From Mesaphorura yosii (lineage: Eukaryota > Arthropoda > Collembola > Poduromorpha > Tullbergiidae), in contig WIXG01000056.1 in the NCBI GenBank assembly GCA_009869945.1, positions 1 through 64,000 of the forward strand: a stretch of 64,000 bases of DNA. The letters run 5' to 3'. Under the pieces are notes generated by a model. The model did not search any database and was not told the origin of the DNA. It saw only the letters and a list, made by a program, of their open reading frames with translations. A program made the position numbers and the translations under genes. This document shows, one piece after another, positions 5,571 through 47,600 of this stretch (the stretch's first letter is position 1; each line of letters starts with the position of its first letter).

Positions 5571-7042
5571 ATGAAGCCGATTTTGGTAAGGAAATTAAGT
5601 CTTTATCCAGACGCTCTGGATTTTTTCACGTTTTCTAGCTGATAACGAGCATATTCAGTTCATTAAGTAAGACTGCCCCTGCCGGGAGCGGCGCTTGACT
5701 TGGATAGCCAGAATTTTACAGAAATAAAGCACATTGGTTCGTTAATCAGGCGAAAGTCACTAACAAAGGCGTAAAAGCACACGCGCTTGGCATCGTTTGA
5801 TAAAGCGTCGTCAAATCCCAGTCAATAAACTAATCTCAGTTTGCCTTTCTGTCTGCAATTCAGCATTGACTTGACTTGTGTACCTCAGTTTGGCAGCGAT
5901 AAATTGCATTAAAATGGAAGACGCTTAACGTAGTGTTGTGCAGCAATAACTTGATAACCACCAACCAGTTAAACAAGTTTGCCGATTGAGACACTTGAAA
6001 CTAAAGCCTTGATGCTCGCATGGGCAGCATTCGCTTTGAGTATTGCTTTGCTTTGCATCTATGCCAAGCTTTCTATAACAGTCATGAAAAATCCTGCTAC
6101 ACACATGAGCTGTTTCCGTGGCGTAGTTGGTTATCGCGTCTGCTTAACAACGATGTTTGCGCGCAGAAGGTCGTCGGTTCGAACCCGACCGGAAACAGTT
6201 AACTTTTTTGCAGTTTTTTGCAAACTGCTTTTGCATTAACTAATGCGCGAAGAAGTGTTATGTGTGCTCCTGACGCACTTTCGCTGATTTTTAATAGTTT
6301 TTCATGTACTGAACACAAAAATAATTTGACTTCTGAATGATTTCCACAGGTCATCTTTTTGCTGGCGGCAGTCATAGACGCCCAGTACTACTATTCCGAC
6401 TACGAGCCCGAGCCAGAGAATTTCTACCATCCATACTACGGGTCTCTCGTGCAACAGCCACACTACAGCAGCTTCTTCTACCCGTCCTACTCCAGAGGAG
6501 CACTCCAGCAGTCATACGGGCGACAATTCCAGCAGGAGCCGTCCTACTCATACTACAATGACTACGAGCCAATGTACGCGCTGTACGACCCTTACGAGTA
6601 CGACCAGCAGTGGGTGTCTCCGTACGTCGTGAGACCCAGCAGGCCGTCGTACTTCTGGACCACCCCAGGCTCATACAGGCGAATGGCCAGGAAGGGAAAC
6701 AAGAATAAGGGCAACAAGAAGGGAAATAAGAAGGGCGGTGGACACCATGAAGACGAAGGTGGCTGGTGGTACATCCGTGACAAAAAAGGATGCATCTCGG
6801 GTACCTGGGGTAAACCACCTCCACACGGCTTGGAGCGAGAGCACTACTCGCAGGGTGCCTGCGGTTACCTGGGTGGGCATTCACAGAGAGGGAAGGGCGG
6901 GCCAGGATGGTCGCTGCCAATTGGCGGACACAAGGTCGGACCCGCCTCAGGAAACAGAATCGGAGGAGGTGGCGGATACGGCGGTGGTGGCTATGGAGGT
7001 GGACGACAAGGAGGACGCTATGCATCAGCGTACGGCCGTTAA
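5571..7042 (+). CDS. Secreted Tyr-rich/Gly-rich orphan protein, 2 exons
   Basis: Exon 1 is 5571-5585 and exon 2 is 6350-7042, joined in phase 0 by GTAAGG and CACAG. The protein is 235 residues. Joining the exons creates a signal peptide (MKPILVIFLLAAVIDAQ) that neither exon has alone, which supports the model. The mature N-terminal part is rich in Tyr, Glu and Pro (YYYSDYEPEPENFYHPYY). A short basic Lys/Asn/Gly stretch follows (about residues 105-125), then a Trp/Cys/Gly-rich segment with two cysteines, and a Gly/Tyr-rich tail. This composition resembles structural, cuticle-like or antimicrobial Gly-rich secreted proteins, but I recognise no family. AATAAA lies at 7138. The 764-base intron contains a complete tRNA gene on the same strand. 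Confidence 0.75.
6112..6197 (+). tRNA. tRNA-Val(AAC) with a 12-base intron
   Basis: The cloverleaf is complete. The acceptor arm pairs 6112-6118 with 6190-6196 (GTTTCCG/CGGAAAC), the anticodon stem pairs 6139-6143 with 6163-6167 (TCTGC/GCAGA), and the T stem pairs 6173-6177 with 6185-6189. The anticodon AAC is at 6146-6148. Bases 6150-6161 interrupt the loop just 3' of position 37, the canonical place for a nuclear tRNA intron. The A box (6119-6130) and B box (GGTTCGAACCC at 6176) are intact, and a run of six T lies at 6204-6209 as a polymerase III terminator. The gene sits inside the intron of the Tyr/Gly-rich protein gene, same strand. Confidence 0.93.
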
Positions 7043-7514: not shown

Positions 7515-10500
7515 TTATTCGCTGTCCACGTCAACCTCATGCGAGACTCCATTCATGGCGCACATTTCTCGTCCTTCAGGCTCCGCCGTGTCTATACCAG
7601 GGTAGGCATATTCAAAAACGTAAGAACACAGAGTTAGCGTCGCTGAAACAAGTGTCACAAGACTGACTTACCCACTGGAATTCCATAAACTCTCTTCTTG
7701 TTAAACGTTATCATAAGGACGTGGTGAATCAGACAAAAAATTAAGGCACCGATTCCAAATACTCTGAACGCTGTCTTTCCTCCCCACTGCATAAATTATA
7801 AACTAAAATTAACTCCGATTCGAGATTAACATTGGACTAGTTTCTTACCAATTGATGAAGAATACCACCGACCAGACTACCAATTGCAACTCCTACAAAC
7901 GTGAAAAACATGAAAATCTTCGATATTATTCAGCAGGGGGGACAGTGGGAAGCTTTTTTAAGTTGCTCTTACCGAAACCTTCGAAAGCTGCTCCAAAAAT
8001 GCCCTGCACAGTCGCAGCGCTGCCTGGAGGACTCAAGACACTTGCATACGTGGCCATAACGGAATAAAATACGCCGAACGTGATCCCATGAAGTAGTTCC
8101 ACCTAATCAATAGAAGAACGTGAAATTAATTTTAAAAGTTGCAGGCAACACAAGCCATAGCGTTATAACTTACCGGAACGAACAGCCAAATGTGTGAAAG
8201 ACATGAATAAATTATGAATCGCACTCCAAATACAAACAACACGAGGGACATACAATTGACGTAGCCCAGTCGCTTTATGAAAGATTCTATAAAAGAAATC
8301 ATATTAAGGCTTGCTTTAGTTAAGAAAATGTGTGCCGTATTAAACACTTACTTGCGTAGTAAAAGAAAGGTAATTCGGAGATGCACTGCACTGCTACCAT
8401 CACACCTTGCAAACTTTTAAGATTGTCTGTATTATCACAGTTGGTGTACGCCACATCTTCAACATACCTGAGATGAGAGTATGAATTGCCATTATAGTTT
8501 TTGAATTTTACGATTTAGAGATTAGCAAATCACTCACCAAAATAGAAAAAACCAATGAATTCCTGTGCACATTCCAACAATTACTGAAGCCATGATAAAA
8601 ATGATTATTCTAAGATCGGTGAGCAATGCGGAGACGTCCTTGGCAAGTGCTTTGGGCTTCGGCATTTCCTTTATCTGTAAAACCACGAATAACTTCAGTC
8701 ATAAAATTCAGCGAATGATCCAAACTTATTCAGGCTAGGTTAGGCGGAAAATTATAAGATGAAAGTAAGTGCAACTAGAAGATTGCAAAATGTTAAAAGT
8801 GAAAAAAAGCAGTGTAAGATGTCATCACATACATCTTGCTGCTCTAAAAGTGTGAAGTCATCCTGCAACGCCTGACGCATTCACGTGTGCAGCACAATAA
8901 TAGTAAACATTGGCAGAGCCGTTAGTGCCCCACAATTAACTATAGGCTTCTATTATCTAACTCCTCATTAAAATGTTCTAAAAGTGTCCTTACCTCCCAT
9001 TTATAGGCGACTATGAGATCAAGAATTAGTAGAGCAGCTAACACGTAGAAGCACGGCGAGTAATCTTTCAGTAGCTTCCCCTTACTACTGGTGTCGATTA
9101 GGAATCCAGAAAAGAGAGTGAACAGTCCCCAACCAACTGCTCCCCACAATCTCTGCAATCCGTACAAATCAGATCGATCGCCTTCAAATAATAATAAAAG
9201 AGCATAAAGATCATTAAATAATTATTGGTCTGACTTTTCTGAACGCGGGACTTACCGAGCAGTTGAAAGCAAAGTGCATCCGCTATGGAATTCACAGTGG
9301 CGATGGACACAAATGCAATGATCACCAGGAGGCCGTACAACCAAAATTTTGTGGAGGTGAACAACTCTTTGTCAACGGACATTACCCTTTCTAGTTTAGT
9401 ATTGAGATCAGGGATACTCGGGCAGTCAGCGTAGCAAGTGTCCAGCTCGTTTTGATCTGACATGCAAGTGATTTGTCTGAATTCTTCAACACCAGGCTTG
9501 AAAGTTATTCCGCTCACTCGCAAGTACAAACAGTCTCCTACAATCTCCGAGCTGGAGAGCTGAGGGAGGAATAAAAATGTTATCGAGATTGCGTATTAAA
9601 ACTGACGATGATTCTTTACCTTCAGACTTGCTTCAAATTTCAGCATGTACGGCTCAATGTCCCTGTACCCCGGATTTTGATTTTGACCTGCTTTTCTGGG
9701 GTTAGGCTCTTGGGTACTTGATGACAACCTCAAAAATGCTGGCTCCGTGTCTAACCCTCTTCTAAGACAGTCGCTTGGCATGTATTCTTTGTCTAAATTG
9801 TTGCAGAAATCTAGGAACTGTGGGATACTGTGAATGTAGCACGCTATGTTGCATCTGTCAGGATTTGCTTGGTATTTCTCCGGTTTCGTAAAGGTGCCAT
9901 TTTGTTCGCTTGAGTTTATCGGATACGATGTGGTACTGCTGGAGAAGAAATTATGATTCTGATCTTGATCCTCATTCTCTTCTTCAGGCCCTGGTTCAAT
10001 TGGCTTTTGCGACGAAGGAAACTTCTCATAGTACGCAAACACTTCCTCTTTTACGGTTAAGTTGCCGGTTCCACATGAACGAGCGCCTTGGCTGCATTGT
10101 TTTATATAGCTTGATCCAAGTCCGCATTCGAACACGACTGGTCTTCTGATTGCTTCTTGGCCCAGAAACGCCATGCAGACGGACGACATCAAAGCAAGTA
10201 GAACACAAAATAGAAAAATCGACTTTCTCTTCTTAAAATGGTCCGCGATGATTCCGATAGTTGGCTTTGCTAAAAACGAGATAAACGGAGCAGCACCTAC
10301 AAATAGACAAATAAAATCAGATCAATAATGGCCCTAATTGTGTAAATCTCGACATTTGGATGGGTGAATTTTACCGTAAATTGCACCAACTTCTGCGCTT
10401 GTGATGCCAAGCTGCTTTCCAAGAACCGGTATGAAAGGAATTAAAGCTGATGCTCCTAAAAATGAACGCAAAATTGGTTAAGTCTCAAACTGGAAACATT

Positions 10501-11895: not shown

Positions 11896-12870
11896 ATGAT
11901 TAATTTAATATCACTTTCATATCTTGCGGCTGCGGCCGTGGCGGTTTTGGCCCCTTCCGCCAGGTGCCAAGACCTTCCACCGCTGACTTGGCGCGAACAC
12001 TGGTTCGAGCACAATCAGAATCTCATGCGAGTGTTTCTGGACAACGATGTGGCCATTTACTTCGACTCGGACGTTAACGGAACCATCACCTGGCCGAACA
12101 AGTACATTGGCGATGTGTGGCGGTACACAAAATCGCTTTACGGAGATTTTGGTGACAAGTATCTTTACGCCATTTTTCACGCAAGAAAGGTAACTGGCAT
12201 ATTTAAAGCAAAACACAATTTTAGGGTTGAAGTTTCGTCTTCAAGCCGTGATACTTATTTTTCGCAGTACTCTGGCGGGCATCCGTCCACGTACTTTGAT
12301 GCGAGCCACGACTACAGAAACACCATCGACTGCGGCTCGAATGCAGCCGACGCGTGGATGTCGGGGGCAGGAAATGATTTGGATCTGACAACTCACGAAG
12401 TTGCTCACATTGTCGAAATTGCGTCGAAGGGGGTGCACAACTCACCAGCATTCGGACTGTGGGGAGACAGCAAGTGGGCTGAAATATTCAACTACGACGT
12501 TTATCGGGCACTTGGAAGGACAGCCGACGTCGAGCGATGGTACAACATGATGATAAACGGCCGTGACAACTTCCCGAGGGCAAACACAGCCTGGTTTAAG
12601 GACTGGTTTTACCCAATTTATAACCAGTACGGTGGCAGCGCCGTCCTAAATAACTTCTTTGTCGTGCTGTCGCAAAATTTTCCAAAGAACAGCAGCGGCA
12701 ATGAGTATTCGAGGAACATGAATTGGGGCGAATTTGTACACTTTTGGAGCGGCGCTGCGAGGACAAACCTAAAGACGCTGGCGACCAATGCGTTTGGCTG
12801 GCCAGCCGATTGGGAGACACAATTCAATCAGGCTCGATTAGATTTTCCAAATATTACTTACGGCAATTAA
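11896..12870 (+). CDS. Secreted BSP-family (plant/bacterial basic secretory protein) metallopeptidase
   Basis: Coding exons are 11896-12189 and 12268-12870, giving 298 residues. Residues 1-24 are a signal peptide ending SARC-Q. The domain fits the basic secretory protein family (Pfam PF04450): KYSGGHPSTYFDASHDYRN, then the zinc-type motif HEVAHIVEIASKG (about 141-153), GLWGDSKWAEIFNYDVY, and TAWFKDWFYPIYNQYGG. The intron at 12190-12267 is inferred because removing its 26 codons restores the continuous family motif HARK-YSGGHPS; it has GTAACT and CGCAG ends and no in-frame stop, so the plain ORF runs through it. The family is common in plants, bacteria and fungi and scarce in animals. An AATAAA overlaps the stop codon (12870-12875). 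Likely a secreted hydrolase; substrate unknown. Confidence 0.87.
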   Translation: MINLISLSYLAAAAVAVLAPSARCQDLPPLTWREHWFEHNQNLMRVFLDNDVAIYFDSDVNGTITWPNKYIGDVWRYTKSLYGDFGDKYLYAIFHARKVTGIFKAKHNFRVEVSSSSRDTYFSQYSGGHPSTYFDASHDYRNTIDCGSNAADAWMSGAGNDLDLTTHEVAHIVEIASKGVHNSPAFGLWGDSKWAEIFNYDVYRALGRTADVERWYNMMINGRDNFPRANTAWFKDWFYPIYNQYGGSAVLNNFFVVLSQNFPKNSSGNEYSRNMNWGEFVHFWSGAARTNLKTLATNAFGWPADWETQFNQARLDFPNITYGN

Positions 12871-18854: not shown

Positions 18855-21800
18855 ATGGATGTTGATGTTTTGATGAAGAAAGATAAGAATGTGGCAGCAG
18901 CGTACATTCACGCTGAATGCTGTCGAACGTCGATACCAGAAACCCTCCATGGAATACTGGATATTTTGCTAAATCCACTGAAAAATATTGATGAATGGGA
19001 TACAATAGTTTGGTGCAAATGGCTAATGGCTGGCGGATGCACGCCCGACGAATTTACCGCAAATGGTAACGTAACCGTATTTTGTATTTTTCCCCTTCAA
19101 TTGAAATTACAGAAGTACATTACCTGTCCTATTTCATTTATAGTTCGAAAATACGACAACGCCACAACTTGCGGCTTAGTTTGGACTGCCAACTTCGTCG
19201 CGTATCGCTGCCGAACTTGTGGCATTTCGCCATGCATGTCCTTGTGCGCAGAGTGCTTCCAAAGGGGAAACCATAAAGGTCACGATTTCAATATGTTTCG
19301 AAGTCAAGCTGGCGGCGCTTGTGATTGCGGGGACACGAACGTTATGAAAGAAGCTGGGTTTTGTTATCTTCATGGGCCACACGCGCATGAGCCGAACCGT
19401 AATCAAGATTGTGGAATTCCGCCTGACCTGCTCAGCGTTGCGATCGCTATGATGCCCAGATTGATACTCCGACTAATTCAGCACATGCGCCAACACAGTA
19501 ATTCATTAAGCGGATTCCTGGGAGCTGTCGATGCCGCGGATAAGTTTATCACAATGTTACATGAAATGAGCAGTATGGGAGCAGCTATGCGACAAGTTAT
19601 GACACATGCACTCACAAACCCACAGGTATAAATTGAGTCAGTTATTCTGAGTGAAGGTTCATTCACTCTTTTAAGTAAATGTGTTTTCTTCTTTGCAGGT
19701 GTATAAAAGTCTGACTGAGATAAGTGAAGACAGCGTCCCTGCAGAATATTTTGAGTTTATGAACAAATCGAAAAGGTCGTATGAAGAAGCGTTGACTTCA
19801 TTACCAAATCCTGAACCTCCAGAAGAGTATAAAGGTAATGAACGTTTAAGATCTGGCGTGGGCTTTAATTAATTAGTGTTCATCAATAAAATATTGGCGC
19901 TTTCAGATATACCATCACTTCAACGGAACTTGGTACACAAGACATTTTTGGAAGAATTCGTGTTTTGGACTGCAAAATTTGAATTCCCTCAGAAAATTGT
20001 CTGTCTCCTACTAAACTTATTACCTGATGCCGACTACAAGGTAGACCAAACTATCTAATCATAAAAGTCAAAGTTTTCTTAATATTTTTTATTAATTTGC
20101 AGGAGGCGTTCACTCGAGCTTTTGTGCTACATTACAGTCGAATATCTCAACTTCTGGTCCAATGTCAGAACCCAGACATGCTATCCAATCGCGTTGTGCA
20201 CGTTTCGGTGCAATTATTCTCTAATGAAAAACTGGCACTCAAGATGACTGAACAAATGAAATTACTCCATGTGATGGTCATCAGTTTAAAGTATATGATG
20301 AGCAAAATCACTATTCCAAGCACATTGTACCAATACACGAACAGCCATCGTGTTGTGGATTGTGGAAACTTAGTCATGAAAGACCACTGTTACTGGCCAC
20401 TTGTGTCAGATCTTAACAACATTTTATCCCACAGACCAGTTGCTTTAAAGTTTTTAGAGGATGATGGCCTGCTGAAAATGTGGTTCAGTTTCTTGTCATT
20501 GTTCCAAGGTATTTTTGTAATTTGTAGTTGACTATATACTATTTGCTAACTGCTCCCTAAAATCTTTTAGGCATGAATGTCAATCATCGTGAAATGAATC
20601 AACATGTGGAGTATGAACCAACGACTTACTACGCTGCATTCTCGGCGGAATTGGAAGCCAGTGCTTCTCCAATGTGGGCGTTGCTCGCACATCTTAAAGA
20701 CTCAAGCACTGCGCACCTGACTAAAAATTTATTACAAAATTGCCGGTTTGAATTACGAAAATGGTTGGACTCAGTCAATGGAAACGTACTGAAGGTTTGT
20801 AAATACAGGCGACATTACAAAGGCAATGGCCAGTGGTACTTACAATTTACAGCATGTCTGTCGTGAATTTTCAGAATGACGACATGCAAGTCTCCTTCCA
20901 CTTTCCACTTCATCGATACTTTTCAGTCTTCCTTTACCAAGGCGTGAGAAATCAGGGTTTGTCACTAAATGAACTTCTGCCACCGGCGGACGAACTTCAG
21001 GCGATGATTCAGCATCCGTTGAGAGTACAAAGCGGATTCTATGAAATCATCAGCGGTTTATGGGTTCGGAACGGACTCCAGATCAAAGGACAGGCTATGA
21101 CGTACATCCAGTGCCACTTCTGCAACTCGATGGTTGACGCAGATCTGTACCTGCTACAAGTGGCGATGATGAATCTGCAGACAGGAGACTTCATTCATAG
21201 CGTACTTGAAAAGTGAGCCCGAATTACATATTGCAGCTTTCTTTCGCTTCCGCTCATGCAACATAAAATTATATTGCAAATTGCAGGTTCCATATTTTGC
21301 CGTCCTTGAGCGTATCAAGCAACGTTAGCAATGCATACTTAGAACCCGACCAAGAAATGCTGATGATGGAAAACTGCTTAGTATTTCTGTCAGCACTATG
21401 CTCCGTTCGAACCTCTATTGGCATGAAGGATGCGGACTTGGTCACAATGGAAATGATTACCCTGCTCTGCATGGGAGACAAAACGCATAGTCAGTTGATG
21501 GAGTTGATGCCGGAGCGCTGCGGAAATAGTTCACAGACGAAGGATTTTGAGTCGGTTCTAGCAAAGGTTTGTATACTGGCTTTGAATTTTAGAGTTATGC
21601 GAAATTAATGCTAAACCGACTATAGGTTGCTGACTATCGAGCTCCAAACTTTGAATCGAGTGGAAACATGCTACAGGGAATGTACGTTCCAAAGGCAGAA
21701 GTCTGGGAGCAGATTTACGATCCAATTTACGTGCTCTTGCGTGCCGTTCATAGAAGAGAATTTCAAACTTCGTTGGATCGATATACTGAACAGTTAGTGT

Positions 21801-24800
21801 CCCATGTTATTCCACTGAATGCATTGATTGCTCTGTACCAAGTTAACACAAATTTTTAATTCAGTGCCAAGCAAGTGGGATCCTTTAGAGGAGCGGGAAC
21901 TTTATGGCCACCTTTCAGGATTCCAGATATGGCCAGTGCTCCATACCAAGACCCGAGGCATTTGCTGTTGTCTCGAGTAATCCAGGGAGTCATCTTCGTA
22001 ATTTTGTACAAAGCTGTCCACACAATGCAGCTTTCAGATCAAATGGTGTCTCTGGCAGTATACCTTCTTGAAATGGCATTGACCGTTTGCGAGCCGAATG
22101 ATAGCGAGGTAAGGTCACGCAAGTCACTGAAGTCACGCGCCTCTCCATTTCTTCCTGATCTTAAATTTTACTGACTCGGAACTGCACTCATTTTCATCTC
22201 CAGGCTGGCATTGTGTCTATTCAAAGAGAAAATTCCACAGGAAGATATGATATGGACTTTACAACTTGGTACAGCACAGACAACTTACTCGCAAATTTAA
22301 AGACAGAAATCGATTCTGTTTTGGTGAAGAATTCAGTCGCTACCTCCGGCCCTTCGGATGGTAAGCACTAAAGCACTTGCTAAGATGCTGACGCGTGTTT
22401 TTGTAATGCGAGATTCATTTGACTGAGATTTGGTGTAATGCAGTTGCAGATATCAGTGTAAATGAAATGGAAGTTGGAAGCTTTGACGAAGTTGAAATGC
22501 TGGAGCCATTTGAAATTGAAATTCAGGGATCTGAGTTAATGGAAAATCCTCTCGCCATTATGCCGCCTGCGTTTGGTATGTGGCATAATTTCTACCCTTT
22601 GCTGGCTGTTTGTAAATTGCCTGAGCGTTGCTTATTTTTGGTGGCTTTCTTTCTTTTACTGAATGTCTGTCATTCAATGAAACGTTTCTGATTAAATGCT
22701 TGTAGAACAAACAGCAGGCCAGGGTACTCAACCGCGACCTGCAGCAGAACCTCTGCAATCAGTAGTAACGAGTGCAATAATTACGGGGGTTGGAGCTATC
22801 GGTGCGCAAATAAATTCCATCTCCGGAAACTTAACTCGACTTTTGTCCAATCAAGGTACTCTTAAACTCATATTACGGATATCCCTCAATTTGTAATGCT
22901 GATGCAGAGTACGCGTAGTTCTTTTAAGTTGCTATCATTTCAATTGCTTCAGTGCGTACAATTACAATAAATTGCATCTTGGCTAGAATCTATTTTTCTA
23001 TGATGAGGCTTATTGTCACAGGACACGCAAGAATGACTCAAGAGGTGGCAGTGGAGGCAATGGCCCACGATGCTTTGAGAGCGGTACGTGAAGCCCGACA
23101 CAACAGAAACATGCAGCTGGTTCTTTCAACTCCCAAGCCGGTCGTACCTGTTCAGAAGATGGAGGTAGAAAGGAGCTTATCGGTAAGAATTCTTGAACGA
23201 CACGTCTTGTTGCCTTCGAATATGACCTCTTAAACATTGCATCATTGTGCACTGATTTCAGAGAGGAGAGTCTGGCTACGCAGTTGAAATTATGCTTGAG
23301 GAATCAATCATCTCGCTTCTGTTGAAACTTCACTCCAAGCTGTCTGCTTCCCCGGATAGTTACGTCCCGTTCTGGCAAACTGAAGACGCGAAAAGATTAA
23401 TCGCAGACGCTAATCGCGGAGTCGAGAATGGGCTTCAGATAATCTTTGACTCAAACGGCGTAGCTTCCTACTCGTATTCTCAGCTGTTTGAAATTTTGCA
23501 TCAAAGCCCGGCAGCAAAGCAGCGAGTGGGAGACGGAACCTTCTTCATAAGCCAAGTTCTTGACCTGATTGGTGTAAAAGATGAATCCTCAAGAAATTAT
23601 ATTCTCAGTACGAAGAGCAAGCTTTGGCCAAAGAATGCAGAAAACGAGGAAGAGTGCAGGCTGCGAGAAGAGCAGGAGTTCGCGCATAAGAAAAGAATGG
23701 CAGCGAAGAGAAGAGAAAGATTAATGAAGGAAATGGCGGAGAAGCAAAAGGCATTCGTCAATGCAAACAAAGATCACACGTTTGAAGACGACGAAAAGTC
23801 GAACGGTGCGAGTCACTCTGAGCAGTTCAGCATGGATGATGATTCAGAACTTAATGATTCTCATTTAACAATTAAACCAATTGAGTACGACTGCGTGATT
23901 TGTAATCAATCAAGCCCAAGCACGGCTAGCAATCCAATCGGTCTCGTTATTCTTCTGCAAGCGTCAAGCGCGTTAGGTCACCGTCGGCGCAAGGGTCAGT
24001 CAGGAATCACTGTGCTAAAGTTTCACTCTGATTTTCTTTTACTGATCTGCAGTTTTTTACTTTCAGGAAGCAAAATGTACAATCTGCCAGTCAGTGACGA
24101 AGAGAAGGAGGAGTCGCAAGCTGTAAAGGATAAAATGAATGATCTGAACGAACAACGGCTGGAAGAATTTCAGACTCTGTTCGGTGACGGGGCGTGGTTG
24201 ATGGCAATTTCTGGAGGCTGGGAAGGAGGAGTGCACGTTCAAACGTGCGGTCATCATCTTCATTACAATTGCTTGAAAGACTACTTGAACAGTTTAAAAA
24301 GTCAGCAAAGGCAGCATAATATTTCCATTGACAGGTTAGATTTAGAATATCCAGATTAAATTGATGAAATACGTCCTATATTTTTATGCTACCATTCTGT
24401 AGAGGAGAGTATTCGTGTCCACTTTGTCGACAACTGGCAAACTCATTTTTACCTTTGTCGCCGGAATTCGGACACCGTATGTCTGCCATCGTGAAGGACC
24501 GCAAAGGAAATGCAGAGCCAGACTACGGCTCTACGAACCCTGAATTGCCTCCTTCTCCAGAAGCTACTATTGCTCTTGAAGTAGTCAAATTGCTTAGGGA
24601 GTATCCTTTTCCGACCGTGCATTGTGCTTTGGTGGATGCAATGACAAGGACCATGGAAGAAATGACGAATGCGACTGCGCTTAGATACAGAAAGGTACGC
24701 GTTGTAATTTTTTAATCATAGTACTGTCCGTCCGTGTCTCTGAAACAGTAATGAATAATTCATGGTAATTTTCTCAACAGATCGGCAGTTCTACCAGTAC

Positions 24801-26456
24801 AAAAAGTATACTTCTATTTGTAAACTCGATCGCCCGTACAAATTTAGAATTGGAAGTTGTGCTTCGAGGTGGAAATCTTGTAACCCCAACCGATCCTCAA
24901 CCATCCACATCGAGTGGGCCGCCTATCGCAACTGCTGTGTCGAAGAGATCATGTATTGGTAAGTTTGGCAGTTGGCCAGGCTACTTCTCTTCCATTGCAC
25001 TTGCAAAAATTGATGAGAATGTGTTCTCTTACGCAGTTCCTCTTCTTCACGTGCTTGGAGTCCACTATAGAATTTTATCCGCTGACATTTCACCAAAAAT
25101 TTGGGAAAGGATACTTGGAATTCGTTTCAAGAACGACGTGTCCATGATGAAACCTGAACGCGATGTCCCGATGCTATTACGTGATCCACTCTCACTTCTC
25201 CTCCATTTGCTGATGCAGATTCCAATTAACGTTGATCTGGGTAAGTAATCTATCCGAAGTCCGAACAAATATGTGCTTTCTACCAAAGCTGGAAACATGG
25301 CACTAAAGGAATTTTCTTGCAGCTTATTACACTTGTCTTGTACAAGGCATTTACAATCTCGCGTATACTCAAGTTCTCTGCGTTCTGAGCTGTCACTTGA
25401 AAGAACAGGAACGCGAATCTTGGAAAATTAAATCAAGTAACACCGCACCGGAAACAGGACAGCTAAGTCAACTTTTCGGAACCGTAATCGGCTGCTTAGA
25501 ATCCTCACAATTATATCGACTTGATTCTGAAATCACAAACTACTTGGACTCCATGTTTCAAGATTCCTGTTACGCAAGCACTTCCCAACTTGGCAGGAAT
25601 GACATCGAAGACGTAATTGAATTTAAACTCAAACAGCTTCTTCTTCCGTTTTTACGAGTTGCTGCTTTAATTCGACATCACATCTACGAGCAAGATCTTC
25701 CATTCGTCTCTTCGAAAGACGAAGAATTCAACCAACTCAGTCAGTTTCTCGCGCTTGGTGGAACAGAAAATCGACTTGTCAAATACGCAAATGAACCACG
25801 AGCTCACGATTATCTCTTCTGGATTGTTCCAAATCCAATGGAAGTTGTCTGGACTTGGTGCGCTGACTTGTGTAACCTCTTCACCAAGAATCTCCACTCG
25901 TCCAGATTTCTTGTGGAAACGCAGTACACGCTTTGGGAACAGCCGCGACTTTTGGAGTTATCACAGGCGTACGACGCAATTTTCCAGTACTATCATCGTA
26001 AACAGTGCACTGAATGCAGTTCGGTACCGAAGGATCCTAGCATCTGCCTAGTTTGCGGGACTTTGGTTTGCTTGAGAGAATCCTGCTGCAAAAACGCGAG
26101 TATTTGTGAAGCGACCAAGCACTCAATCGATTGCGGAGCTGGAACCGCAATTTATTTGTGTGTCAGCTCCAGTACGATTGTGGTAATTCGTGGAAAACGA
26201 GCTTGTTTATGGGGAAGTGTGTACTTGGATTGTTTCGGCGAGGAGGATCGAGAGCTTAAGTAAGTTAGCAAGTTATACTACCAATGCCACAATTCTGAAC
26301 TTTCACAAAATAATTCACCCTTCTGTCTTGTTTTGCAGACGAGGAAAACCATTATTCATCAGCAAGGACCGGTATGCTCTTCTCAAACAACAATGGCTGA
26401 CGCACCGATTTGATCATACGGCCAGAAAATGGATATTTCATCGAGACACCTTATGA
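18855..26456 (+). CDS. UBR3: E3 ubiquitin ligase UBR3, 21 coding exons
   Basis: Coding exons: 18855-19065, 19144-19625, 19699-19834, 19907-20040, 20103-20508, 20571-20794, 20875-21212, 21287-21566, 21626-21792, 21865-22108, 22204-22360, 22444-22575, 22706-22855, 23022-23182, 23262-23994, 24067-24334, 24403-24694, 24781-24958, 25037-25240, 25323-26259, 26339-26456. All phases close, giving 1983 residues, close to vertebrate UBR3. The UBR box spans about residues 77-150 (CRTCGISPCMSLCAECFQRG, ACDCGDTNVMKEAGFCYLHG). The split RING starts YDCVICNQSSPS (about 1290), continues VQTCGHHLHYNC and ends CPLCRQLANS (about 1415). The C-terminus RGKPLFISKDRYALLKQQW matches the autoinhibitory end of the family. 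It ubiquitinates substrates in the cytosol; partners include Rad6-type E2 enzymes, one of which is encoded at 59485-60039. Confidence 0.95.
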
Positions 26457-34669: not shown

Positions 34670-37600
34670 CTAGGTCGTCGGTGGAGCGGCGGGAGCTGGA
34701 AGTGCGTTTAACGAGCTAGTTGTGGGCTTGTCACCACCACCGCCTCCGCCTCCGCCACCAGAGCTTCCAGTGCCGAAAATAGAAACTAAAAACGAAAATA
34801 AAACGTCCAAAATAAATAAAATGGGCTAGCAAATCGAATTCTGGGTTAAATGGGACAGTGAAAGACATGCGGACACAAAAGGACAAAACGACAAAAAGTG
34901 ACGAACCATGCATCTCAATTAAACCATGTCATACTCGCAACTCGTAATTCAAAAATCATCGTGAGCTTGACAGTTTTAGGAAATTAACTAGCTTAATACC
35001 CGTAACGGACGCTTCGCATAGCGTTGAAGCCTTTTGCGGCGTCCGAACGAGTAGTTTGAGATCATTGGAGAAAGCTGACAATTCTTTTCTCTTGAAGAAA
35101 GGAATTACCTCCTAACCAAGTTAATTATCATTAGTACGTACGCCTATAACATTAGTACGACATGTATATTCAGGGATTGGATTTTAGTATATTAGACAAG
35201 ACTACTTTACTTGATTCACGCTCATTAGTTCTTGAACAACACCGAGACATCCTTCAGGCTCAGGAAGTCTAGTTAGCAACCTCATTAACTTAGTCACAAT
35301 GATTATCATGCGAATAACTCTGACTGAAATGAATTCACAATTTGCATCGCACAAGATGGCATGGATGGGATTAAATCGTTAGTTTCTACACTCGCCTACT
35401 CACAGTATATTAATTCGTACACGAATTACAATTACATAGATTAGCATTGGAAACATAATTAGTACAGCAGTGAATTCCCGCATACGCATTACAGCATTCG
35501 GTCAGTTAGCGTAGAGTAGATTCTGAGTGACTTGAGGGTGAAATTAATGAAGCAAGTGTTCAAGAGTGAGAACAAGTTGATTGTCGGCATTTCGTAAATC
35601 TTACCTCCACCGGCCAGTTTTGCCTTTAAAAAATACTACCTGTGTCGCGGTTAAATGTTTAGAAGAATAGGACAGGAGTCCAAAGGCAATTAAAGAGAGC
35701 AAGAGAGAGAAAAACAAAGATAAAAATTAGTAAGACCCAATTACCAATCAACTATGAACTAAACTACCCGTCCAAAGCAGCCAGGCAGTGAATTGTGAAC
35801 TTAAATTTATGGCTTGGCTTGGCGTAGCGTGGAATGGAGTGCAAGAAAACTACTCAACTGCACTGAAGTTATCTACGATAGATAGCGATGGCCTGCAACA
35901 ATACTACGGGCTTGAGAAATAGAAAGTTAGGGTTATTTAAGTGGTGACACCAAATTAGCTGTGGGTGAAATTGAAATTGGTCCTTCGACCAACTTCACAA
36001 AGCTACAACTAGCAGATGGATGTAATTTCACAGCTTTCATCAGTTGAAACTGTGATTTTCTAAATTCTAACACCGGTAGGATCTAAATCTAAACACACAT
36101 CGACGACGGAAACGAAACCCAAGCAAACGACGAGTTAGTAGAGTAGTAGACAGTGAGCGTGGATTCAGCAAACTAGAGGCTCAGAATGCTTTTTGACGAA
36201 AGGGGACGAAGCCAAGGAATATCAATAGCTGAGGTAAGTGAAGAAAGTCAACGAGATGAGAAGCTGAGTGGTTAGTGGTTGTTCCAACGCGACAGACACG
36301 TAATGCACACGCAAGTTCACAGCGAATTCACATAAACTTACTTCCGATAATAATGATGATTATCAAACCAATAACTCCCATAATGATCATCATCTGAAAA
36401 GTGAATGAACTCAAATTATCGTTCATTCTTTCCTCTTTATATTTGAAGTGACGTAAGAAGTGGTTATGCCCGACTTACTTTCAAATTCTTCCACCAGTAC
36501 TTTCTTTTTAGCTTTCCAGCCTGTTGCTCAAACTGCGAGGCCCCTTGCTGAAGAGCATCTGAAATTCCATATCACATTTGTATTAGCATGATTCCACTTC
36601 AATACGGTGGGTGAAAGCAAAATAAAAATTGTAATTGGAAGCAGGGTCCTTATTTCTATTTGGCGTGGCAGAGTGGCTGTACAAAAAGCGAAGACGGTGA
36701 AAGCAGAAAGCATTCAGCAAAAATTGACAAGGAAAGCAAAAATATGCACTTCAAATTCGATAAATCGCAAAAGAAAAGCAAAAAGAACGCGACGAGAAGA
36801 CGAGAGCAACAAAAAAGTGAACGAATGATGGCTTAAAAACGGAAATAAAAATTCTGGCGCGATTTTAAATGATTATATGATTAAGCAACGAAAACTAATT
36901 GCTCTGCCCTTCTGTACAAAACGTGAAAAATAAACATGGACATTGTAAGAAGCTGAGTCCATATTTACAAAGCTGGCACTAGAAAAACTAGTTCAAGAAG
37001 TAAAAAATTATTAACCAGCTCTGTCGTCCAACTCAGAAAGTTTTTGATCTCTCTCAAGGACTTTCTCCACATTTGTCCGCATTATGTCCACGACCTAGTA
37101 AGAATATTGCGAATTTTAATTTTGTGTTAAGGCTTGTTATGCTAACATAGGATTCTTGGTTTAATTCGTGAGGGGATTTTCCAGTTTCGTTAAATGTGTT
37201 CTGATTAAAACGGTTGGAATCTTCAACTTCAAATTTCACGCATCACCTTCACATTTTGAGACCTAATCATTCTTTTTTCTCCGCTTGGTAATCCAAGTAT
37301 AGCTGTCTACTGACAAAGCAGTCGAGGTGTTAGTCACTCGCAATGTGGCAATCGCAGCAGCCATCAGCCATCAACCAGATTACCAGTAGAAGCTCAAGTG
37401 AAGTTTAGCATTTTAGCTTCAGCATTTAGTTAGTTTAAGAAATGCAATTCAAATTCTTAACTTGTAAAAAGATAAAGACAAAGAAGATAGGTTAGAAAGT
37501 ACTTTAAAGATGGGAAATGAGAAAACCTCCCCTAACTGCACAATTTACAGCTTTGATGCATAATGCATTTGGCATGTTACGCTACGCCATACACCACCCG

Positions 37601-38174
37601 AGACCCGACAAAGTTGTCGCAACTGCAATTAGCCATGCCACTCAACGCGTAGAATTAAGGAACCATCTTCGAATTTTGGGTTTACCTGTCCTATACTCTA
37701 ACTCATTCAGCTTCGAGTCTCTTTCTAATACTTTCTCGACATTTACACGCATAATTCCAACCACCTGCATATGTACAGTAGGAAAAATAAAATTGAAGAA
37801 TAAATGAATATAGTTATATTAGCATTTATGGTTCGTGTCACGATCGTTGGGGTCGGTGTGAAGATTGCTCGGCGTGACTTATCACACGTTCCTTCGTGTA
37901 GCTCTTCTGAAATTGGCCATGACTTTTTTCCACATCAGTTTTCCTTACCTCATCAACCTGAGCCTGAGTCTGTTGAAGACGGCGTTGGGCAGCAATTTGC
38001 TGGGGAGTTCGTGGTCCGCCAACAATAGCTCCATCGCCACCAGCTTCAGGTGCACCAGGCGCTCCGGGTGCTGACCTGCAATAGAGAATATTACTTGCAA
38101 TTACACACAGAAAAGAGAATTTGCCAACATCACGAAGCGCGACTTTGAGCTTGGTCATACCTGATCTTAGGCAT
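34670..38174 (-). CDS. nSyb: Neuronal synaptobrevin (VAMP), with alternative exons
   Basis: Exons (minus strand): 38161-38174, 37949-38075, then one of 37686-37764 or 37016-37094, 36479-36558, 36342-36393, 34670-34785. This gives 155 residues. The order is MPKIR, an Ala/Pro/Gly head, [13 protein letters not shown] and the SNARE motif with the zero-layer arginine in [24 protein letters not shown], the membrane anchor [17 protein letters not shown], and a Gly/Pro-rich luminal tail ([16 protein letters not shown]). Such tails are known in insect n-Syb. The protein is the vesicle R-SNARE that pairs with syntaxin and SNAP-25 for exocytosis. Two 79-base versions of the exon for the first half of the SNARE motif lie in tandem. 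An alternative terminal exon may exist at 35626-35639. Confidence 0.93.
35626..35639 (-). other. nSyb: Possible alternative terminal exon of synaptobrevin
   Basis: After a CACAG acceptor the minus strand reads, in the phase left by exon 36342-36393, Ser-Ser-Ile-Phe-stop. This would replace the long Gly/Pro tail with a short end like that of vertebrate VAMP2. A GTAAG further downstream lies after the stop. Splice signal strength is moderate. Confidence 0.35.
37016..37094 (-). other. nSyb: Synaptobrevin alternative exon 3b
   Basis: A 79-base exon encoding [26 protein letters not shown] plus one base, closer to the animal VAMP consensus than exon 3a. The acceptor is TTACTAG; the donor GTTAAT is weaker than that of 3a. 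Because 79 is not a multiple of three, using both exons or neither shifts frame into exon 4. Confidence 0.85.
37686..37764 (-). other. nSyb: Synaptobrevin alternative exon 3a
   Basis: A 79-base exon with a strong acceptor (ATATGCAG) and donor (GTAAAC). It encodes [26 protein letters not shown] plus the first base of the next codon. It keeps the zero-layer arginine. Compared with exon 3b it replaces Asp-Asp by Glu-Tyr before the final Arg and lacks the Gln after LERD. Confidence 0.85.
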
Positions 38175-40416
38175 GTCTCAAATAGAATATTATGCTCACA
38201 CGGACCCAAATAGCCAATTATTAATTAACTTCTATCTTTCTTATTCTTGAAGAGTGTGTCCACACGACTTCGACGGCTTGACAAATGAACGATCAACTTT
38301 AAAATGGCGAGGAGAAAGCAGGGACGGACAGGGGAAGCTGTGAAAGCTACTATGTCTTTCTCGTTCATTGATTACGCGTTAATAATTTTATTACCACAAC
38401 CTCCTAGGTGCAGCTTGTACAGGAAATCTGTGGTAATTTAGTAATTAGCAGTAAAAAAATAGTGCTGGAGGCCACAGGCCAAGGCTAAGGAGTGGAATTC
38501 AACATAAAGTCATACGGCTCAACGACAATAAAGTAGTATTTTGCGTCATAGGATTCAACCCGTTTGTTTTGCTACCCAGAAAGGAGTCGATGTCGTTGAG
38601 TTACCAAAACAATTTACATTAATGGCTCTGCTGGCTGCAGGAATTCAGAACTGGAGATACGAAAGCGTTCGTGAATTTTCAGCTCAAAAAGGCATATTTT
38701 GAGTTGACTGCCATGCCGTATGGATTAAGGGCGTTCGGGTTATAACTTTAGTTGACGTCAATGGAAACTCAAAGCCCATAACCTTTGCAATTTCACTCCA
38801 CTACTCAGTGGTCAAATCAAAAGCGTAGCTCACCAGAATTGAACCGATAACTCATATCTGCTGCTAATAAAAGCGATAATGATAATGAGCTCGGGGACTT
38901 GGAGGTAACTGCCAGGTGTCAAACCGCAGAGATAACACATGGACAACAAGCTCAGATAATTCACCCTACCATTTTTCGTTTTTGCGATGTCGGTTGAACT
39001 TCAGGAGAAGGACGTGACTAACTGCGTGATTCCTTGATGCATATGCCATGATACAATTAATGAATTCGCTTCGCTTGATTTCGTTCCTACTCGTAACTAA
39101 AATTTTTTGCGACTTCCTAATGTGCAAGATCAAGCACATAAAATCAATCGCTAATTAGCGTTACGCGTAATTATTGACGCGCAAAAATAAAAAAATACGA
39201 GTAGTCCGACACAAATTCTGCTTAATTTATGGACAAATATCAATGAACCTCTGTGACTTTACACAAATGCAAACAATTTTGCTTTGGCCTATCAGTTACA
39301 GATGTGACAGTAATGTGTAATCAAGCAATTACTTACATTTTTCCTGCTTAACAGTTTTCCGAAATCTTGAGTTAACCAACAACTGTTTTCGTGTCCCAAA
39401 TTCGACCTTCGGTGGCTACGCTTCCTTTACAGTTGCAATCTGTGTGGTTGCTCGGCAAGTCTTGATGAATAGAAATCTTCAATTAAGCTTCTATGGAATG
39501 ATTAATCCAACGGCGATGGTGACGATTGAATATTCACACGCTCAGGAAGAGCTCCACTGACGTTATGCCTGCAATGTGATGAAAGGAGTGTTAACAGAAT
39601 AATTATTCCGACTTTCCGACTGACAATGAGTCATAAAAGATTTATGCCAACCTCACTAACTCGATTCTGCTGCAGTTAATAGAGTCAATCTGTAATTTTT
39701 TGCACGGAACAAGGCTGGCTTTCAGATTGGGTACCCAAAATGTACCTGTGAATCTGTGAAGCAGCGTACAGAGTTGAATAGGCACAGCACTGCAGGCAAG
39801 CAGGCAGGCAGAATGAAACCAACACCTTTTGACAGTATGGCTGGCCGTTATCTGCAACTTGCTACTGTGCTGTGCTCATAGTCTCGGTCTCGAACTCGTA
39901 TGCGTACCTCGCACGTACGTACAGCGTTGAGGGTATGCCGAGTTGAGCCATGGCCACCCGCCCACAATTGAATCCATAAAATCAAACCCCGAGACGAGAC
40001 GATGATCGCGATAGAGCCGAGCCCGTACAACTGAAAAGTGTACAGCGTGTGAGCCACACGCCACAGCCACGGTCGCTGGGTTACGAAAGTTCCGAAACGC
40101 ATGCGAGATGAAGTTCCTGGAAATCCTACGAGTGCTGGTATTTAACTAGCCTATTGCCTACTGGAGTATTGGCACTGAATTGATGCACAAGAAAATTGGA
40201 AGCGTGCATTGTATGCAGAATTAAGATAAGTGCCGTATATTGCCAAAAGTGTACTTTTCAACTTCGCCAACATGTTCGCCTTTTGCAAAAAAATGCACGG
40301 ATCTCGACAGCGACATTTTCTATTCTTATTAAAATAAAAACGTTTTTAAGCTTTTATTTTAACGCATAATTGCTGAATAGACAACAGAATGAGTAATTTA
40401 GCAGCTGGTTTATAGT
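38175..40416. other. Region upstream of synaptobrevin, downstream of RpL22
   Basis: About 2.2 kb without supported exons. It would hold the synaptobrevin promoter and the RpL22 3' end; a minus-strand AATAAA lies at 40353-40358, 59 bases after the RpL22 stop. Open frames near 39642-40102 show no protein-like features. Confidence 0.5.
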
Positions 40417-41745
40417 TTACTCATTGTCATCCTCGTCATCGTCAGCATCATTTCCAATCTGGAAGTAGCGCAGTTCGTAAACGTCTTTCCCAGTAGAAAT
40501 GACACGAAGGGTATCACGAAGCAGATTCTTCTTCAAATACTTCTTCGTGAGGTATTTCAGATATCTGAAAAAAGATATGCCCGGCAATTCAAAATTATGT
40601 CATGCTATATAAATATGTTTCACTTCACAATTTTTTAATTGAATGGATTTTACCTCTTGGAGAAAGCAATATTGGCGTTCACAATGATCTTTGAATTTTT
40701 GTCTCCCTTCTCAATGCTGAGCACATTTCCAAACTGACCCGTCTTGCCATTGATCTTGATTCTTTCTCTCAAAAATTTCTCCTGAAGGAAAAACAACACC
40801 CGATTGTCAAGTTATTTGCCATGAATTAGGGAAGAGAACCCTAATCATTTCTAAATAACTTTGGTCTGCCCAAATTGCATGCATTTCGCTATGCCTAGGG
40901 AAGAGAACCCTAATCATAACATTCAGTTAACTGCAATTGGACCGACAAGGCTGGATAGATTCAGCAACCAGTGACGCAGAGGCACTGACAGACTGAACTG
41001 CAACAAAGAAGGCAACCAGTCAAGTCAAAGCCAAGCCCCGACCACATTTCTCGACTTGCCAATGAATGACTGAATGAATGACATTAAATTAGGACACATG
41101 CTTATGATTTCCACTTACAAAATCGCTAGAATTGAAAAGTTGATCTTCAGCAGGCAGTGTGCAATCAATCACGAATTTTGATGTGGTCTTCTTCTTCTTT
41201 AGAGCCGCTGACTTTCCTCTCAAGACTTGCTTTCCGGTTGTCGCCTTCTTGGCGGTAGCCGTTTTCTTAGTTGTTGCCTTCTTCACCGACTCCTTCTTGG
41301 GTTCCTTCTTCGGCTTAGCCGCGGCTGCAGCACCTTCCGGCTTCTCTTCTTTCACTTTCGGCGCAGCGGCTGGTGCTGCGGCCTTTGGCGCTGGCTTCTT
41401 CTCAGCTCCTGCTGCAGGTGCTTTCTTTTTGTCCTTACCATCTCCAGCTCCCACTGGCTTTGGTTTTGGTGCGGCGGCGGCAGCCGGTGCTTTCGCCGCT
41501 GGTTTGGGTGCTTCCGCAGCCTTCTTCGGGGCGGCTGCGGCTGCAGGTGCCTTTGCCTTCGGGGCTGCTGCTGCTGTGGGTGGCTTGTTTTCTTTCTTAG
41601 CACTTCCAGCGGCTGCAGTTGGGGCCTTGCTTCCTGCTGCTGCTGCGGGCTTCTTCTTTTCAGGCTGCAATTTGTAAATTTCACTTTAGGAAAATAATTA
41701 CAATCAAAGGCGGGTTAACTGTTAGCAAAAGCTTACCGGAGCCAT
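40417..41745 (-). CDS. RpL22: Ribosomal protein eL22 with long Ala/Lys/Pro-rich N-terminal extension
   Basis: Exons (minus strand): 41737-41745, 41119-41664, 40654-40781, 40417-40564, giving 276 residues. The first exon encodes just MAP. Residues about 4-160 are low-complexity Ala, Lys and Pro, resembling the histone H1-like extension of insect RpL22. The conserved eL22 core follows ([61 protein letters not shown]) and an acidic tail. The protein is part of the 60S subunit; the extension is thought to give extra, possibly chromatin-related, roles in insects. The antisense strand of exon 2 also stays open but only as a shadow of the GC-rich repeat. Intron 2 (40782-41118) holds duplicated hairpins. 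Confidence 0.95.
40825..40917 (-). promoter_or_regulatory. Duplicated hairpin in RpL22 intron 2, candidate autoregulatory element
   Basis: A 22-base direct repeat occurs at 40827-40848 and 40896-40917. Each copy folds on itself: ATTAGGG (40825-40831) pairs with CCCTAAT (40839-40845) around a 7-base loop, and TAGGG (40896-40900) pairs with CCCTA (40908-40912) around the same loop. In the transcript the loop is UUCUCUU closed by a G-C pair. The proximal hairpin lies about 43-63 bases upstream of the acceptor at 40782, in the branch point zone. eL22 proteins bind stem-loops and control splicing of RPL22-family transcripts in yeast and vertebrates, so autoregulation is a reasonable inference. Confidence 0.45.
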
Positions 41746-44697: not shown

Positions 44698-47600
44698 CTA
44701 CGATGAGCTAGACTGATTCATCCCAGCGGTAAAGAACTGCGGAAACCCGGGATTATTACCTGAAACCAATTAACGGGACACATTAAATTACTAGGCTGCG
44801 CTGCAAGTCTGCAAGGATTGCCAGACAAAAACATTTCCATTACCAGTTGGAGTCGTAGGCTGCGACGAAGTGTTGGACGTGGTTGAGGTGGAATTGTTTC
44901 CTTGCGTGGAGGCATGAGCTGCGGCGGCCGCTGCCGCATTCTGTCTGGCGTGACGGGGAACCGGTGGTTGAAGGTATTCATTTTTAGCTAAAGCAAGGAC
45001 GTCGAGTCTATCCTCCTTTCGATACGCCAGGCAGAACCGAATCAGTTGCTGTAAAACGAGAAAACGATAACCATAAACTCAATATTCGGAAAGTTGAACG
45101 CCAAAAAGAATCAGAAACTGAAGTTTACCTTGGCTTCTGGAGTCACAGTGGGTTTATTAGGAAACTGTACCTCTGTCGCTTTAAGTATAGTATTCTCTTC
45201 TAAAATCGTTGCTTGAGACTGGTTGTGCCCAAACGGCTGCAAATAAATCAAGACAGGTTTAGTTTCATGTACACATGAACTGAAAGCTGAATAGCGCCGA
45301 TGAAGTACCTTTTTGCCATAAAGGCACTGATAAAAAATAACTCCTACGCTCCACACATCCACTTTGGATGAAATTTTTGGAGGTGTCTTTCCAACGACGA
45401 AACATTCTGGAGGTAAGTACCTGCAAGAATTAATTTAATTAGTTTGATTTAATGGCATTGTAACCCACTAAGGAGCATGCTTGCGCGAATTATTGAGTCG
45501 AGTAGACTAATGGCTGATACTCACCAGTATGTTCCTGCTCCTTGGGAGGTCAGATCCATACCGTGCTCAGGATTGTAATTGTCTTCGTCCATTACTTTAC
45601 CTAATCCAAAGTATAATTCACTGTAATTCCCTGACCCTAAGCCAATCCCCTGACAATTAACTGTAATTAAAGTCAGGGTAATTCCAACTTACTCAGTCCA
45701 AAGTCTGTTATTTTTATCTCCCCGCAAACGTTTCCTTCCGTTAGAAGAATGTTTCCTGAAATCATGTAAATCAATTAGTCTCGAGCACGTGATATCAAAT
45801 CACAGATTATAAACTACTTGAAGGAATAGAGGCTATTGACTCACCAGGCTTAAGATCATAGTGAATAATAGGTGGCTTTATCTCGTTCAAGTACTTTAGA
45901 GCAGAGACGACTTGCATAACTATCGACCGCGCTTCTCGTTCAGGAATTGTTTTGTGCTGAAATATACAATTGACACATTTTAATAATGACGTCGATTCAA
46001 TTTCAACTTAACAGAAACAATGAGTAATTCGATTTACTTACCTGTTTAAGGTAGAAGTCTAGATCATGGCCATCACAGTATTCCAATACTGTACAGAAGG
46101 AGTTGGCATCGATTTCAAAGACGTCGTATAATTTAACTACTCTAGGGTGGTCCAGGGACTTGTGGATATTGTACTCTCGTAAGGCGTGTCTTCAATAAAG
46201 AACACAATTAATTCAGAGTTCAATTACATTTACACCGTAATTTGCTGTATTGTTTGCCCCTTACTTGATATAGTTGGCTTTCTTGTCATCTTTCCAGTCT
46301 TTATTTAGCTGATGCACTTTGCACGCCACGTAACGTTGTTCTTTCAAGTCAAACGCTTTATGCACTTCGGAAAATCCTCCTTTTCCAAGAAGCATCAGAA
46401 GAAGATATCGCTCATTCAGCACCGTATGATTATTAAATCTTGATTGATCCTCGTTTAAGATTCTCTTTAGTTCTCGGATGTGCAAATTGCGCTCCCTCTC
46501 CAACTTCTCCATTTCGAGCTGAAGATCCGCATCTTCTTTCTTTAACGCGTTTTGCCGAAGTTTTAGAATTTCATCAGACTCATAGAACTCCTGCCATGTT
46601 AGTTCTCGAACACTGTCCGGTTTAACAAAACCGTCCGTTGGGGTTCCGTTGTGCAGGGTGGCGGTGGTGCCGGATCCTGCCCCTCGCTTCCGAGCAGCTC
46701 CCTGGGTCTCATTGGCTGGAGGTCTCCGCTTTCCAAGTTGCTTTCTTTGTCTGTCAATTTCTTCTTTCTCGGAAGATATTTCTTCTTGCCGCCTTGATAA
46801 TTAGAGAATGGTTTAAGCTGTGTTTACTGATTACTACTTTAATACAATTCAGCGTACTGTTTTTAATATTATCAACACTCACCTCGTCAGTTCTTGGAAA
46901 GCGTATCCATCAGTCCAGTTCTCTTGAAAAGATGCACCTACCCGTTGCGTAACGAACTGTCCTAATTTCAGTCTATTTTGCATACATCTTTGTCGAGCTT
47001 CTTTCTTATCTATTGTTGATTTTTCTATGAGCAATTTCTTAACCACCTGCAACAAAAATATGAAATCATTGAACTGATTCCTGCGAATGAGATCGAATAT
47101 AAAAACCGAACTTACATCAATACATTTGTTTATATGAGCTTTTTGTTGATCAATCACGACCTTCTGGCTGGAAACTTGATGCTTCAAATCGTCGCCAGAT
47201 CGAACCAATTCGTCAATTCGAGTATTTTTAGTTTCAAGATCGGTTGAAGCCTGGGCTTCGCTCTCCGCTAATCTAACTCCAGTTAATTCAGTCTGAACTC
47301 CCTTAGTTGTCATTGTGTTAAGAGGTCCAATGGAGCTGGGAGTGCTCGCACCAGGAAAGCTCTGGCCACTGGGGCCTGCAGTTGGGGCGGTGCTGCCACG
47401 CGGAGGCTGCATGAGGTTTAAGTTCGCATTGTACTCGGATGAACTGGGAGCAGCTACCGCCTGCCCCTGACCTGATGGCTGGGTGGCTGATGGAGTTGAA
47501 CAAGCTACACTTTGTGGACTAGCAGGAAACTGTGAAACAAAGACAAGCGAGAGTTAGCCACAGCACTCCCGCATCCGCGGTTGCGAAATTGTAAAATTAC

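Follow-up and report, generated by a model that had tools for sequence, protein, structure and literature searches.

The window analysed is a stretch of 64,000 nucleotides from a contig of the Mesaphorura yosii genome (WIXG01000056.1, positions 1 to 64,000), and its minus strand holds a synaptobrevin gene of the VAMP1/2/3 type. All coordinates of this gene are given on that strand, and a slash marks the boundary of exon and intron. Only the 3' end of exon 1 has been placed (39337..39338); it supplies the A and T of the start codon, which is divided by intron 1 between exons 1 and 2 (AT/G), and its donor AAT/GTAAGT has a predicted U1 duplex of -5.1 kcal/mol. Exon 2 (37949..38075) encodes the N-terminal region. 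It is followed by two alternative exons of 79 nt, each encoding 26 residues and the first base of an Asp codon. Exon 3a (37686..37764), the divergent version, has the acceptor catatgcag and the donor CAG/GTAAAC, and exon 3b (37016..37094) has the acceptor ttactag and the donor CTG/GTTAAT. They are separated by an intron at 37095..37685, and the introns around the pair have lengths of 184, 591 and 457 nt. Exon 4 (36479..36558) encodes the later part of the SNARE motif and the linker, and exon 5 (36342..36393; donor GAA/GTAAGT) the transmembrane segment. Beyond these lie a candidate alternative C-terminal exon of 18 residues (36173..36228; placed by reading frame and acceptor only), a candidate alternative 35-nt exon leading to an early stop after SSIF (35605..35639), and a candidate alternative C-terminal exon with a Gly-rich tail (34670..34785), the latter two also placed by reading frame and acceptor. 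The donor of the 35-nt exon, GAG/GTAAGA, ranks second of the 308 GT sites scored. With either 3a or 3b the complete protein has 117, 131 or 151 amino acids depending on the C-terminus.

Several other features are found in the window. Upstream of the synaptobrevin gene on the same strand, at about 40417-41745, is a gene with a long Ala/Lys-rich N-terminal extension that we take to be RpL22-like. The ORFs of an N-recognin-type gene lie on the plus strand at 18855-26263, with matches to the UBR box and PRT6_C. A 324-amino acid ORF at 11896-12870 looks secreted and contains HEVAH, an HExxH motif; even at an E value of 10 it matches no Pfam family. Lastly, a minus-strand ORF at 46879-47412 has no Pfam match over the cut-off, and presumably resembles part of Tousled-like kinase.

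The family assignment holds for both versions of the protein. The motif and membrane anchor match the Pfam Synaptobrevin family (PF00957; cut-off 26.4 bits) with 118.1 bits when 3b is used and 112.9 bits when 3a is used. On comparison with solved structures, VAMP2 (2kog) scores 154.1 bits with 3b and 141.3 bits with 3a. Among solved proteins, both isoforms come closest to VAMP2 chains, and the synaptobrevin in entry 1l4a, presumably that of squid, is next; the nearest solved relative is VAMP2/3 and not VAMP4, VAMP7 or VAMP8. Within the alternative exon, 24 of the 26 residues of 3b are identical to VAMP2, and 19 of the 26 in 3a. We considered whether 3a might be a swap to another type of R-SNARE, and rejected this. 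On going from 3b to 3a the VAMP4 score drops from 57.1 to 50.1 bits and that of VAMP8 is flat (42.6 and 42.5 bits). The only scores that rise are those of endobrevin (1gl2; 23.4 to 23.9, i.e. 0.5 bit) and Nyv1 (25.3 to 25.9, i.e. 0.6 bit).

Exons 3a and 3b are each preceded by AG and followed by GT. Exon 2 ends in phase 0 after VDE, and exon 4 completes the split Asp codon with the bases AT (G/AT). Inclusion of 3a alone or of 3b alone gives a frame that is open into the membrane anchor. Joint inclusion of both leads to a stop after 82 amino acids, and skipping of both to a stop after 59 amino acids; both of these stops fall upstream of later exon junctions. The initial annotation had proposed two tandem 79-base exons that fit the same upstream phase 0 and downstream phase 1, such that use of both or neither would break the frame, and this is borne out at 37764-37686 for 3a and 37094-37016 for 3b, each of which fits exon 2 and exon 4. 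Its further claim that a choice of one of two is forced is supported by the frame, by the splice sites and by the conservation of both copies as protein.

That conservation is seen when the two exons are compared with each other. They find one another in a self-comparison of the gene region on the coding strand (E = 8e-10 and 4e-10), with 51 of 79 bases and 19 of 26 residues identical. Thirteen of the 26 codons differ silently, seven by replacement and six are unchanged. The 28 base differences are distributed 6, 4 and 18 over codon positions 1, 2 and 3, a bias towards the third position with p = 0.0008. When the same 28 changes were placed at random, none of 100000 trials kept 19 residues (the best kept 17), and a stop codon was created in 57183 of the 100000. 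The estimated dN is 0.216, with no finite dS (NG86), which we read as saturation. From the silent and third-position bias, together with the random-placement test, both copies look old and long kept as protein. Their equal length (79 and 79 nt), phase (0 and 1) and splice sites are those of tandem-duplicated exons, albeit with a weak donor for 3b. Taking anatomy, frame lock and protein-level conservation together, we consider it on balance probable that 3a and 3b are mutually exclusive tandem-duplicated exons, a reading based on the genomic sequence.

The differences between the encoded proteins can be placed on known SNARE structures. VAMP2 numbering was set by the alignments with solved proteins, and agrees with R47, D64 and D65 as given in the available text of PMC4040926. 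The exon spans VAMP2 residues 42-68, corresponding to layers -4 to +3 using heptad spacing from Arg56 (core positions 42, 46, 49, 53, 56, 60, 63 and 67, in steps of three and four). It therefore encodes the middle of the R-SNARE motif, and not its first half as had been thought. The zero-layer arginine was correctly seen in both exons, within VLERD. From 3b to 3a the changes are D44G, T48V, Q58S, S61N, D64E, D65Y and A67T. Four of these seven had been recognized earlier (D44G, Q58S and the replacement of Asp-Asp by Glu-Tyr), while T48V, S61N and A67T had been missed. Their description as surface residues stands in part; A67T is in the core at layer +3. By heptad spacing it is the only one of the seven that is, and the other core layers within the exon are identical.

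The contacts that the central helix of complexin makes on synaptobrevin extend over R47 to A69, and the key ones include D64, D65 and D68, according to the portion of PMC4040926 available. Replacing these three aspartates together by alanine interferes with synaptotagmin-induced fusion in vitro (PMC4611016, available text). Two of the three are altered in 3a, as D64E and D65Y; D68, which is encoded partly by exon 4, stays. D64E is a conservative, mild change and D65Y is not. Six of the seven changed positions lie inside the R47-A69 footprint, which is no enrichment because most of the exon lies within it. A complexin gene is present in the genome, with a central helix close to that of 1l4a and to that of complexin-1 in 5w5c, so the partner surface looks ordinary.

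Splicing of the pair may be exclusive and the two proteins nevertheless interchangeable, with the choice simply following tissue expression programmes, as for Syb and nSyb in the fly. A 2002 paper, listed among the references of PMC3708831 and cited in PMC11666571, by its title reportedly found members of the fly synaptobrevin family to be functionally interchangeable for release and viability, and the identity of all core layers but one within our exon is in keeping with interchangeability. It is also suggested that nSyb can compensate for loss of Syb (PMC11666571, in the part available). On the other hand, seven replacements including D65Y and a core-layer change persist between copies with no finite dS, and this fits differences that have been maintained, without proving it. 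We give interchangeability a real but lesser chance, and prefer the reading in which the two exons encode functionally distinct proteins.

The splice donors of the two exons differ markedly in strength. That of 3a has a U1 duplex of -8.3 kcal/mol, ranking fourth among the 308 GT sites across the gene region. For 3b the duplex reaches only -2.6 kcal/mol (rank 89 of 308), which makes this donor the weakest of the six scored in the gene, the other five (exons 1, 2, 3a, 4 and 5) lying between -5.1 and -10.1 kcal/mol. The acceptors are equal in pyrimidine content (11 of 17 for each). The weakness of the 3b donor could reflect decay of that copy and not regulation, and one of the exons could then be a relic, seldom if ever spliced into a message; alternatively 3a could be the relic, given its divergence from VAMP2 at 7 of 26 residues. 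Yet the sequence encoded by 3b is the canonical one and its junction with exon 4 is exact; 3a is free of stops and flanked by good splice sites, and both have been conserved as protein despite many silent changes. We therefore regard a relic exon as improbable.

How might the exclusion be achieved? Steric interference between 3a and 3b is unlikely, since introns of 184, 591 and 457 nt are too long, exceeding the limit for that mechanism. We also looked for pairing between introns, as docking-selector RNA pairing is the mechanism of Dscam. The best pairings in the three intron pairs have energies of -30.3, -27.7 and -28.1 kcal/mol and beat all eight simple shuffles in each case. With dinucleotide shuffles as controls, energies at least as strong occur in 2 of 80, 3 of 80 and 12 of 40 cases, and with real stretches of the window in 7 of 80, 13 of 80 and 37 of 40. 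Pairing between introns above these genomic controls was not found, and we make no claim for such a mechanism. Most likely the exclusion is enforced by the reading frame and decay of the wrong products. Within the intron separating 3a and 3b there is a strong acceptor-like tract, noted by eye at 37461-37500 (TCTAAC, a long pyrimidine run and ACAAG). It has no recognized exon behind it, and is possibly a decoy 3' splice site.

Decay of wrong products could also be the point of the arrangement, so that joint inclusion or skipping, by error or by regulation, would serve to lower the level of synaptobrevin. The positions of the stops in the two unproductive forms would allow it. Such a dose switch would work with only one functional coding exon, whereas protein-level conservation is seen in both, and we consider it very improbable. 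It is hardly credible that two paralogous genes have been collapsed or joined in one contig, for all that this is a draft assembly of 1127 contigs, since exons 2 and 4 match once each with no second copy in a protein search (in which exon 5 is unmatched). Selection of one of two distinct coding exons remains our preferred reading.

The 93-Mb draft was searched exon by exon for other synaptobrevins. The PF00957 profile gave six matches, of which two fall on this gene, in exons 4 and 3b; the other four read like Sec22, Ykt6, VAMP7 and a VAMP4/8-like protein. This search missed exons 2 and 3a of the very gene under study, so it could equally have overlooked a divergent second gene. When proteins were searched with E values allowed up to 10, there were five matches: four are exons of the synaptobrevin gene (4, 3b, 2 and 3a) and the fifth is the Sec22-like one. 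Thus no second gene of the VAMP1/2/3 type was found in the draft by profile and protein searches made exon by exon. No relative was found in collections of genome contigs and of viral contigs in one scan of each. The genome also contains TTAGG telomere-type repeats, which fit an arthropod (40 partly overlapping matches, and 0 for the reversed control).

Five stretches of 9.9 kb carrying other SNARE-machinery genes were checked for tandem exons. They comprise three of SNAP-25 type, complexin and one of syntaxin type (not identified as syntaxin 1); they may not contain whole genes, and one of the seven SNARE-domain places is included. A coding tandem pair was found in one of the five, of SNAP-25 type, and the other four gave only weak matches (best E 3e-5). 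In the former (contig C112, 400-10300) an exon of the second SNARE motif and the last exon occur twice in tandem, at 6458-6602 with 6836-6901 and at 8807-8951 with 9033-9098. The copies are 94% identical over 53 amino acids, with dN 0.03 and dS 0.95. Because there is a single PF00835 match on the contig they look like alternative terminal cassettes, in which case the animal would have duplicated SNARE-motif exons in a second of its core SNAREs.

The observations suggest the following model for the synaptobrevin gene. Splicing would select one of 3a and 3b, and transcripts with both or neither would stop early and be removed by nonsense-mediated decay. The 3b form would be a canonical R-SNARE of neuronal type. 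The 3a form would have the same zero layer with a changed complexin-facing patch at 64-65 and a changed core layer +3 (A67T); it would probably couple more weakly to complexin, and probably zipper with a slightly different energy. Given the strong 3a donor and the weak 3b donor, 3a is probably the default exon and 3b probably needs an activator, which might be a cell-type factor acting plausibly in neurons. One gene would thereby cover two jobs that are given to two genes in flies. Since positions 64 and 65 are named as key complexin contacts (PMC4040926 and PMC4611016, in the text available of each), it is plausible that the choice of exon tunes fusion through the surface facing syntaxin, SNAP-25 and complexin. 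We would extend this only doubtfully to a scheme in which 3b provides clamped, fast-release vesicles and 3a less complexin-dependent ones, the pair being an old arthropod feature of which Syb and nSyb of the fly are the split into genes.

Synaptobrevin is generally viewed as the vesicle SNARE that does not vary, regulation being assigned to its partners. With one version of the exon in each message, a single gene could give two kinds of fusion protein. The natural swap of seven residues, affecting two complexin contacts and one core layer while the rest of the protein stays the same, is a ready-made test of the role of the R-SNARE surface in release. It also raises the question of whether a neuronal and a general synaptobrevin can be reached either by duplicating an exon or by duplicating the gene.

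Among the matches listed in our literature search, titles and abstract openings describe no alternative SNARE-motif exon in synaptobrevin; annotated arthropod isoforms are outside the scope of this statement. The use of tandem homologous exons one at a time is the same class of event as that treated in PMC9741552, and in the available main text of that paper VAMP, SNARE and SNAP25 occur 0 times. A VAMP from crayfish nerve cord was cloned using primers encoding VDEVVDIM and VLERDQKL, and the authors found one sequence and could not exclude other isoforms (PMC3991612, available text). Both peptides are encoded by 3b. Against 3a and 3b, respectively, the first primer is mismatched at 6 and 4 of its 26 positions and the second at 9 and 4 of its 24, so only the second discriminates much between the two. 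Assays with primers placed in an exon of 3b type, as in the crayfish study, could miss an isoform of 3a type.

In Drosophila there are also two synaptobrevins, with nSyb expressed exclusively in neurons and Syb the one used in S2 cells, as described in the available part of PMC11666571. Unlike 3a and 3b, these are separate genes and not exons. We take fly Syb to have Gly at position 44 like 3a, and nSyb to resemble 3b; a text search of the literature for three fly synaptobrevin peptides found none. Drosophila nSyb also has alternative C-terminal exons, as our gene seems to have, but that splicing changes the C-terminus and not the SNARE motif (PMC6025963, available text). The nearest known case is that of exons 5a and 5b of vertebrate SNAP-25, judging from the text of PMC2581893 that is available. 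This too is a SNARE gene of neurons in which one of two tandem exons must be chosen, and few residues differ between the products. SNAP-25 is not the vesicle R-SNARE, however, and its swap alters 9 of 206 residues, in a domain that spans the palmitoylated cysteines (PMC2581893). By contrast the choice between 3a and 3b covers core layers -4 to +3, and changes seven residues.
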